A stretch of DNA of 36,365 nt from an uncultured Lachnoclostridium sp. (lineage in GTDB: Bacteria; Bacillota; Clostridia; Lachnospirales; Lachnospiraceae). The notes beneath the pieces are model-generated. The model was not told the origin of the DNA, made no database searches, and saw only the letters and a program-made list of their open reading frames with translations. The stretch lies in assembly GCA_947565985.1 (NCBI GenBank), contig CANOID010000015.1, forward strand, positions 1 through 36,365. The letters are read 5' to 3'. This document shows, in pieces, positions 34,982 through 36,365 of the stretch. The translations under genes and the position numbers were made by a program. How positions within the stretch are numbered: position 1 is the stretch's first letter; every line of letters starts with the position of its first letter.

Positions 34982-35767
34982 TTAACTATTTTCAAATAAT
35001 GCTGCCAATTTTCCTATTGAATCTGTAACCTCAATTACAGACCTTTCAATATCTCCATAGATTGTAGCTGACTGTGAGGACAACTCACCCATGCTTTTTG
35101 CAACTACAGCAAAACCTACACCAGCCTCACCGCTTCTTGCTGCTTCTATAGAGGCATTAAGTGAAAGCATCTTTTGTTTATTGGCTATTGATTTAAGTGA
35201 ACTTGTATTAGTATTAATCTTTTGTATAACATTTGTAGCATGGTTTATTTCTTCTTGGAGCTGACTTAATTTGCCACCACTATTACTGCGTGAATATTCA
35301 CCATTTATAAATATATTTATCATGTGACCAAATACGTTAGCTCCTGCTCTAATATTCTTTTCACTATTTACAGTTACTTTTTTAAGTGCATTTATGTATG
35401 TATCAGGGTCAATGCCAAGTTCTGCGGCTGTTCTTCTGAATGTTTCTTCATCAGGTTGTCTTGACAACACTTGTCCTCCAACAACAGAACCAATTTTTTC
35501 ATTGTCTAACATAATATCAATGTTGTATTCCATCAGCCCCGCATGACAACTGTACACACCCGAATTACTGTTCATACACTTTTGACAACGGCGGCGACCT
35601 TCATCAGAATTACGTGTATATTTTGCACAAAAATCAGTATAATTGCTCTCTTTAGTAATCTTTTCACCCTTATTGTCCAATATTACAGCTGCAAGTCCAG
35701 TTGCATCGGATAAATCGTCTTGTATTTGTTGTAATTTTCTCAAATCCACAAAGTCCCTAATATCCAT
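34982..35767 (-). CDS. Soluble PocR-domain mini-chemoreceptor
   Basis: The 261-residue protein begins with a PocR ligand-binding domain (about 1-160): DATGLAAVILDNKGEKIT, DFCAKY, GRRRCQKCM, CHAGLMEYNIDIML and IGSVVGGQVLSRQP. Its cysteines are typical of the family and may hold metal. The C-terminal part has the chemoreceptor hairpin tip [20 protein letters not shown] and GVGFAVVAKSMGELSSQ, but only about four helix turns on each side, far shorter than a normal signalling domain. There is no membrane segment or HAMP domain. It may bind a small ligand such as a diol or short-chain compound and signal to CheA in the cytosol. GGAGG is five bases before ATG 35765-35767. Confidence 0.85.
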   Translation of the reverse strand: MDIRDFVDLRKLQQIQDDLSDATGLAAVILDNKGEKITKESNYTDFCAKYTRNSDEGRRRCQKCMNSNSGVYSCHAGLMEYNIDIMLDNEKIGSVVGGQVLSRQPDEETFRRTAAELGIDPDTYINALKKVTVNSEKNIRAGANVFGHMINIFINGEYSRSNSGGKLSQLQEEINHATNVIQKINTNTSSLKSIANKQKMLSLNASIEAARSGEAGVGFAVVAKSMGELSSQSATIYGDIERSVIEVTDSIGKLAALFENS

Positions 35768-35834
35768 AACATCCTCCATAAGCAAAATATTGTGTATTAA
35801 AAAATAGCGTTGATTCTCGAAGCCTAATAGTATT

Positions 35835-35863
35835 ATTATATAGCAATATCAGAATAAATGCAA
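35835..35863 (-). promoter_or_regulatory. Promoter of the PocR-domain gene
   Basis: On the minus strand TTGCAT (35858-35863) lies 17 bp from a perfect TATAAT (35835-35840). Confidence 0.75.
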
Positions 35864-35902
35864 GGAATTCCAGCATTAAAAAATCATTGATGCTTACTTA
35901 AT

Positions 35903-36064
35903 GTTACTATTCACGGCTTTGCCGTTTCATAGTAACAAGTAGCGCTTTCAGCGCTGAGATGCACACAATTTGTGTAAAAAACACACAAATTGGCACTGTT
36001 AAACTCGTATTTTTGACAAAAAGCGGTCAAAAATCCTCGAACTTAACTGACTGTGAATAGTAAC
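35903..36064. repeat. 162-bp multi-hairpin element bounded by a 12-bp inverted repeat
   Basis: GTTACTATTCAC (35903-35914) and GTGAATAGTAAC (36053-36064) are perfect inverted ends. Inside lie GGC/GCC; AGCGCT/AGCGCT (35941-35946 with 35950-35955); CAATTTGTGT/ACACAAATTG (35966-35975 with 35983-35992); and a long arm of GTTAA, TCG and ATTTTTGAC (35998-36017) pairing with GTCAAAAAT, CGA and TTAAC (36026-36047). The left end can also pair locally with ATAGTAAC at 35929-35936. There is no open reading frame. It is either a MITE-like repeat or a structured RNA. Its right end overlaps the gap before the next gene's stop by 3 bp. Confidence 0.65.
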
Positions 36065-36067
36065 TAC

Positions 36068-36289
36068 TTAATACTCCTTTACAATATCTTCTTTTGCTAC
36101 ATCATATTTTTGCATAAATGTCTGTAAATCACCATCATTTTTAATCACCATGATATCATGGAATTTTCCAGTCTGTATTTCTTTAAATCCCGCCACTTTC
36201 TCGCCTGTGCATATGCTGGCACGTATTACAGGTTTTGTACTGCTTTTATCATAAGGTTCAACCTGTTGCTTTTTCTTAAAACCAAACAT
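36068..36289 (-). CDS. Small conserved protein of unknown function
   Basis: This 73-residue protein begins MFGFKKKQQVEPYDKSSTKP and contains the segment VIRASICTGEKVAGFKEIQT and GKFHDIMVIKNDGDLQTF. I recall similar short proteins in many clostridia, sometimes labelled aspartate dehydrogenase without support; this one is far too short for an enzyme of that kind and has no Rossmann motif. The N-terminus is basic and the rest soluble. GGTGGTGA lies before the ATG. The IS-like end at 36313 sits 24 bp upstream of its start, so its natural promoter may have been displaced. Confidence 0.65.
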   Translation of the reverse strand: MFGFKKKQQVEPYDKSSTKPVIRASICTGEKVAGFKEIQTGKFHDIMVIKNDGDLQTFMQKYDVAKEDIVKEY

Positions 36290-36312
36290 TATTTGTCACC
36301 ACCATTATATTT

Positions 36313-36365
36313 GTGAACTACCCATTGTCTAAAGCCAATGGGCTTCCTGCTTCGCAGACCTCGTA
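36313..36365 (-). mobile_element. Right end of an IS200/IS605-type element that continues beyond the window
   Basis: On the minus strand the end reads CCCATTGGCTTTAGA, then CAATGGGT, then AGTTCAC (36342 down to 36313). CCCATTG and CAATGGG make a perfect 7-bp hairpin with loop TCTAAAGC on the plus strand. A small CTGC/GCAG hairpin lies at 36347-36357. The blocks and their spacing match 13786-13815. The element body, possibly with tnpB, would lie to the right of 36365, so its state cannot be judged. Confidence 0.55.

Follow-up and report, generated by a model that had tools for sequence, protein, structure and literature searches.

The question raised by this locus is what a densely paired stretch of 162 bp, lying between two minus-strand genes, actually is: a member of a new repeat family or a structured RNA. 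Both readings had been put forward from the letters of the window, that is, the whole stretch of 36,365 nucleotides that was analysed.

Architecture and setting of the element

The perfect 12-bp inverted repeat announced for the termini of the stretch is present (35903-35914 and 36053-36064), and the second partner proposed for the left end at 35929-35936 is real: it corresponds to ATAGTAAC and appears among the listed inverted repeats. Direct copies of ATAGTAAC are found at element positions 27-34 and 155-162, with a spacing of 128 bp. The strong internal stems are also borne out, the predicted fold reaching -52.8 kcal/mol on the plus strand (dinucleotide-shuffle mean -30.4, z -6.40) and -57.7 kcal/mol on the minus strand (mean -33.8, z -6.68), and 0 of 200 shuffles folded as well as the element on either strand. 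The original prediction further held that the element has no reading frame, no obvious promoter and a single copy in the window. In agreement with it, the overlapping ORFs number 0 among the listed frames of at least 80 aa, none of the 7 promoter sites returned by a scan of 35700-36365 (2.9 in shuffles) falls inside the element, and one end pair only is present across the window at 0-1 mismatches. A single terminator-like site was detected in 35700-36365 (0.2 in shuffles), inside the element on the minus strand (35955-35941). The features are collected in Table 1.

Table 1. Features of the 162-bp element and of its borders, in window coordinates
Feature	Positions	Strand	Basis
Element, very probably a complete non-autonomous MITE with IS66/ISBst12-type ends, 162 bp	35903..36064		ends, target duplication, copies
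Left terminal inverted repeat GTTACTATTCAC	35903..35914	+	inverted-repeat listing
Right terminal inverted repeat; inward 20 bases equal to the IS66 end of G025 (L291:1354)	36053..36064	-	repeat listing and end comparison
Left 8-bp target duplication TACTTAAT	35895..35902		
Right 8-bp target duplication TACTTAAT; holds the stop codon of the 73-aa minus-strand frame	36065..36072		
Inner ATAGTAAC, pairing in inverted orientation with the left end and repeated directly at the right end (36057-36064)	35929..35936		
Small hairpin GGC-TTT-GCC, left end module (helix 2)	35915..35923		fold and alignment
Hairpin AGCGCT-TTC-AGCGCT (helix 3)	35941..35955		fold and alignment
Hairpin CAATTTGTGT / ACACAAATTG (helix 4)	35966..35992		inverted repeat and alignment
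Long hairpin; outer arms 35998-36007 / 36038-36047, inner arms 36009-36017 / 36026-36034 (helices 5 and 6)	35998..36047		fold, inverted repeat and alignment

The 282-bp gap between two minus-strand frames was likewise located as described, at 35786-36067. On its left side, a 267-aa frame (34982-35785, minus strand) displays a PocR sensory domain followed by part of an MCP signalling domain, and the element lies 117 bp from the start of this gene. On its right side, the insertion is located at the 3' end of a 73-aa frame (36068-36289, minus strand), whose stop codon is comprised within the duplicated target. The window itself stops at the contig end inside another abundant repeat (36312-36365, ACTACCCATTGTCTAAAGCCAATGGGCTTCCTGCTTCGCAG...), with 24 matches in the host genome, several of them near contig ends; we take it to be reminiscent of the end hairpins of IS200/IS605-type elements.

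Copies, target duplications and shared IS66 ends

Both borders of the element are abutted by an exact 8-bp direct repeat, TACTTAAT, which had escaped the original prediction. In the host genome, a draft of 185 contigs that is 87% complete, 14 matches were listed at E <=1, and 6 of them are near full length (contigs C15, C63, C7, C45, C1 and C13). Identity is 96-100% for four of these six, one of them being the window copy, and 87% and 81% for the others; the former values suggest recent movement. Both ends could be placed in 5 of the 6, those of the C13 copy being degraded; the other host matches are partial, located at contig ends, or weak. Within the genus, 10 of 28 genomes, host included, contain matches at E <=0.001, with at least 11-31 matches per genome (lower bounds, 30 candidates having been scored for most relatives). 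The search of phages and plasmids, performed in distant mode at E <=1e-5, gave zero matches to the element.

Target duplications were read in a sample of 96 loci, some of which represent the same place twice; both ends were placed in 83 of them (64 distinct) and not in the other 13. Among the 62 distinct insertions with enough flank, 49 display a duplication of at least 7 of 8 bases and 13 do not. Other duplication lengths (4-7 and 9-12) are exact in 0-3 of the 62, and 23 of 3782 mismatched flank pairs, used as a control, reach at least 7 of 8. It had been proposed that near-identical copies with target duplications would mean a MITE, and such copies were found: six near-full-length ones in the host genome and exact 8-bp duplications in 41 of the 62 insertions. 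As judged from these sequence comparisons, a fixed 8-bp duplication around copies is the signature of a transposable element.

An empty site for the window insertion was sought with a query made of the flanks minus the element and minus one duplication. None of the seven relatives (L129-L135), in which one flank aligned, provided a clean one: the alignment of L129 stops 12 bases before the insertion junction, and the second-flank match of L131 is the other repeat at the window's end, out of place. The empty site is left unclaimed because both flanks are covered by no relative. With respect to coding sequence, an open frame of at least 60 codons extends, among 44 intact copies, to both borders in 6 and to neither in 22; for random positions at the same loci, the corresponding numbers are 691 and 630 of 2150.

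Several copies of genome G014 (among L024, L070, L074, L080 and L084) lie in similar targets (about TCATAAAAATT...CC). The L024 copy is located within a second inverted repeat (gcgtccgtttc ... gaaacggacg), possibly as a nested insertion into another repeat family. The host genome also contains six unpaired exact GTTACTATTCAC sites (C12:31834, C17:4519, C23:5, C55:5720, C82:6818 and C132:3998; L048-L053), all followed by AG and devoid of an adjoining MITE interior. At one mismatch or less, host-genome end sites number 40, versus 28 for the reversed control.

The search for a parent was directed at IS66 only, using PF03050 and a profile (A2) built from five sequences of divergent IS66 transposases. 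PF03050 was found in 4 of the 10 genomes chosen as MITE holders and in 48 of 120 drawn family genomes, and A2 matches 10 of the 28 genus genomes. No IS66 transposase was detected in the 87% complete host draft by any of three profile searches, nor by PF03050 and A2 in the MITE-bearing G014, G023, G026 and G027. Loci L043, L166, L169 and L171 exceed the PF03050 cut-off; NF033517 is their top NCBIfam model, yet below its own cut-off.

Ends nearly identical to those of the MITE occur on IS66 elements of the genus and the family. Around divergent IS66 genes they are GTTACTTTTCAC in L171, GTTACTGTTCAG in L166, GTAACAGTTCAG in L043 and L044, and GTTACTGTTCAC at both sides of L168 and at one side of L169, the latter with the exact 8-bp duplication GCCGGAAT. 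In G004 (L282), a member of the genus, a 1615-bp element displays two GTTACTATTCAG ends, a 488-aa transposase frame between them and a 7-of-8 duplication; two shorter frames (156 and 131 aa) lie inside it on the strand opposite to the 488-aa frame. By inspection, L043, L166, L171 and L175 have no 8-bp duplication, and one end of L044 and of L168 coincides with a contig end, beyond which a duplication is out of reach. In G025 (L291), a partial IS66 gene is accompanied by the end GTTACTATTCACAGTCAGTT, which over 20 bases matches the inward-read right end of the window element exactly, and the first 15 of these bases are shared by G017 (L285). Further in, at positions 21-36, L291 and L285 are alike in 13 of 16 bases, versus 5 of 16 for L291 and the MITE; since the two loci agree inward where the MITE differs, they represent ends of IS elements rather than MITE copies nearby. 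The MITE of G006 and G019 has at one of its ends GTAACAGTTCAG, 12 bases that also form both ends of the G006 IS66 element. The MITE interior was found in none of the IS66 elements inspected. The higher-scoring IS66 elements of the family (L136-L165) have no MITE-like end pair at one mismatch or less within the retrieved stretch, and a single site in four of them; such pairs sit on lower-scoring IS66 matches, plus L175 (118.5 bits, one end mismatched).

The ends of the IS66 family typically begin with 5'-GTAA. The window element starts with GTTAC, as do L166, L168, L169, L171 and L282, and L043 and L044 start with GTAAC; on account of this GTTAC start, the element is classed as derived from a variant branch and not as an IS66 element. 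We are highly confident, class and parent taken together, in its assignment as a MITE whose ends and duplication are those of the ISBst12-type branch of IS66. Its mover is likely a single-gene ISBst12-type IS66 transposase, by which the MITE would be mobilised in trans. The enzyme, supplied in this manner, would bind the MITE ends and join them to DNA cut in a staggered manner, mostly between genes, and filling of the stagger by host repair would produce the 8-bp duplication.

Correia/NEMIS, RUP, ERIC and BOX are short, mostly intergenic, hairpin-forming repeats of other bacteria with strong folds, whose sequences and ends are probably unlike those of the window element. ISDge4, of the ISBst12 group, is reported to have a single transposase gene (449 aa), a direct repeat of 8 nt and the ends GTGACTACTCAGCA and GTAACTGCTCAGCA (PMC12898284); these ends and this duplication length fit the MITE family, whereas the window element is gene-less, 162 bp long and has GTTACTATTCAC ends. 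Of two described MITEs, MITECca01 is mostly intergenic and has a proposed parent in the IS982 family (PMC9769881), and MITEPsy1 is attributed to ISPsy2 as probable parent, with a 4-nt duplication (PMC3189936). Both resemble the window element in being short and gene-less, with inverted ends common to the parent IS and several to many copies, but they depend on transposase families other than IS66, and the 4 nt of MITEPsy1 contrast with the 8 bp observed here. Full-text searches of the open-licence literature, judged by titles and abstract starts, found no published description of the present repeat family.

Small units of 23-36 bp

A further 80 loci, a selection of the listed sites, were picked from the end listings for paired or unpaired ends. 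An end pair with at least 7 of 8 duplicated bases was found in 33 of them and none in 47; 19 of the 33 are units of 23-36 bp (14 with an exact duplication, 5 at 7/8). When the right flank was shifted by 1-8 bases as a control, 0 of 80 loci displayed a short unit at 7/8 or better (109 end pairs each). An additional 34-bp unit with the exact duplication AATATATA, in a low-complexity target, is present in the host genome (C153, L011). Units of 23-36 bp with ends nearly back to back and exact 8-bp duplications were observed at L208, L240, L241, L210, L202, L214, L229, L201, L219, L220, L223, L224, L230, L203 and L011 (and L274). Within one mismatch, eight of the 19 short units reproduce the local MITE over 34 bp from its left end (27 bp in G023), and five more (L214, L229, L232, L213 and L215) resemble, by eye, diverged left modules.

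These units are best read as in-place deletions, which the occurrence of the direct repeat ATAGTAAC at element positions 27-34 and 155-162 would explain, for the 34-bp product, as a deletion between repeats. In the nearly precise excision of Tn10 and Tn5, a deletion between short repeats near the insertion ends leaves a remnant within the target duplication; the proposed origin of the small units resembles this process and is drawn here from comparison of sequences. In 20 further G006/G019 loci, the search for duplication-flanked 32-bp units of the resident subfamily came out empty, which supports deletion weakly because the direct repeat of that subfamily is shorter. Four of the 20 gave a pair (a 242-bp element at 8/8, two of 27 bp at 7/8 and one of 33 bp at 8/8), the 27-bp and 33-bp pairs being of other sequence types.

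It may also be envisaged that the 23-36-bp units, above all the recurrent 33-34-bp left module, in which the end recurs internally as a mirror of its outer copy, were themselves transposed by the IS66 enzyme. This is unlikely in our estimation. The break points differ from unit to unit (left plus right end bases of 16+15 in L202, 10+12 in L208, 12+13 in L210 and 24+17, overlapping, in L203) and L208, with its 23 bp, could not accommodate two ends of 12 bases; both the varied break points and the size of L208 count against transposition. If true, the units would be among the smallest mobile DNA elements known, consisting of two ends with almost nothing between.

Covariation and the rival readings

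Members of the family have the internal hairpins in common, by inheritance. In an alignment (A1) of 46 distinct copies whose target duplication matches at 7/8 or better, the six-helix structure has 91.3% of its cells paired, and cells with two-sided changes number 106, versus 36.6 for shuffles, none of 500 reaching 106, and 1-20 for slid controls. No excess was observed for the pairs with two-sided changes (13 versus 12.1 in shuffles) or for the pair types (33 versus 35.1). Single-step departures from Watson-Crick pairing on the tree, in a count that omits one column pair that never pairs, lead to G-U in 28 cases and to A-C in 40 (p 0.18); given the absence of a significant strand preference, the covariation is not proof of an RNA, and equal covariation could result from palindrome correction at the DNA level. 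In L200, L193 and L201 the left module has been turned into a near-perfect palindrome, a sign that paired changes may arise in the DNA itself, by template switching or palindrome correction. The hairpins would most likely be kept by DNA-level processes, such as end recognition or the cruciform or template-switch correction of near-palindromes, and not by one transcribed strand; this is the weakest step of the explanation.

A structured RNA that happens to repeat (riboswitch-like, a small RNA or a 3' end element of an mRNA) would account for the strong fold on both strands, for the paired cells and two-sided changes of the alignment, and for the location of the element, which on the minus strand lies a few bases past the stop codon of the 73-aa frame. 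However, 8-bp duplications surround copies at unrelated sites, the G-U and A-C changes show no significant strand preference, and the numbers of changed pairs and of pair types are no higher than in shuffles. A curated RNA family was rejected for the element, as Rfam returned no match at gathering over the whole window, nor at E <=1 on 35850-36120. We therefore regard the RNA as very improbable. Of the two options of the original prediction, the repeat family is upheld by the copies and their 8-bp duplications, and the structured RNA is not, in view of the Rfam result and of covariation without strand bias. The covariation that it named as the mark of an RNA does exist, but falls short of showing one, the duplications of a MITE occurring together with it and no significant strand preference being apparent.

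For the MITE, two further matters bear on its mover and its fate. IS256, ISL3, IS6 and IS1 also give duplications of about 8 bp, and a transposase of such a family, with a merely coincidental likeness to IS66 ends, would fit a host genome without a detectable IS66 gene; the 20-base identity to an IS66 end of the genus and the 10-12 bases common to several IS66 elements make this explanation hardly credible. At some sites, the host may later have put the MITE to use as a hairpin for regulation or 3'-end processing, a role reported for some other bacterial MITEs. The bias of the insertions away from coding sequence and the terminator-like site on the minus strand are in favor of such recruitment, but the element is present at the window's site in 0 of the 7 relatives compared (one flank aligned), no insertion conserved across species is seen, and we consider recruitment a minor, rather doubtful prospect.

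A repeat rich in hairpins, and abundant in a portion of a single genus, is thus linked to a named transposase group, and repeats of this nature can be annotated instead of being mistaken for structured RNAs. It also serves as a warning example, as compensatory changes among the copies of a repeat do not always point to an RNA. Between 162 bp and 23 bp, the sizes form a graded series in which the target duplications persist; this series documents how near-palindromic insertions may decay in nature, and it allows testing of the minimal IS66 substrate.
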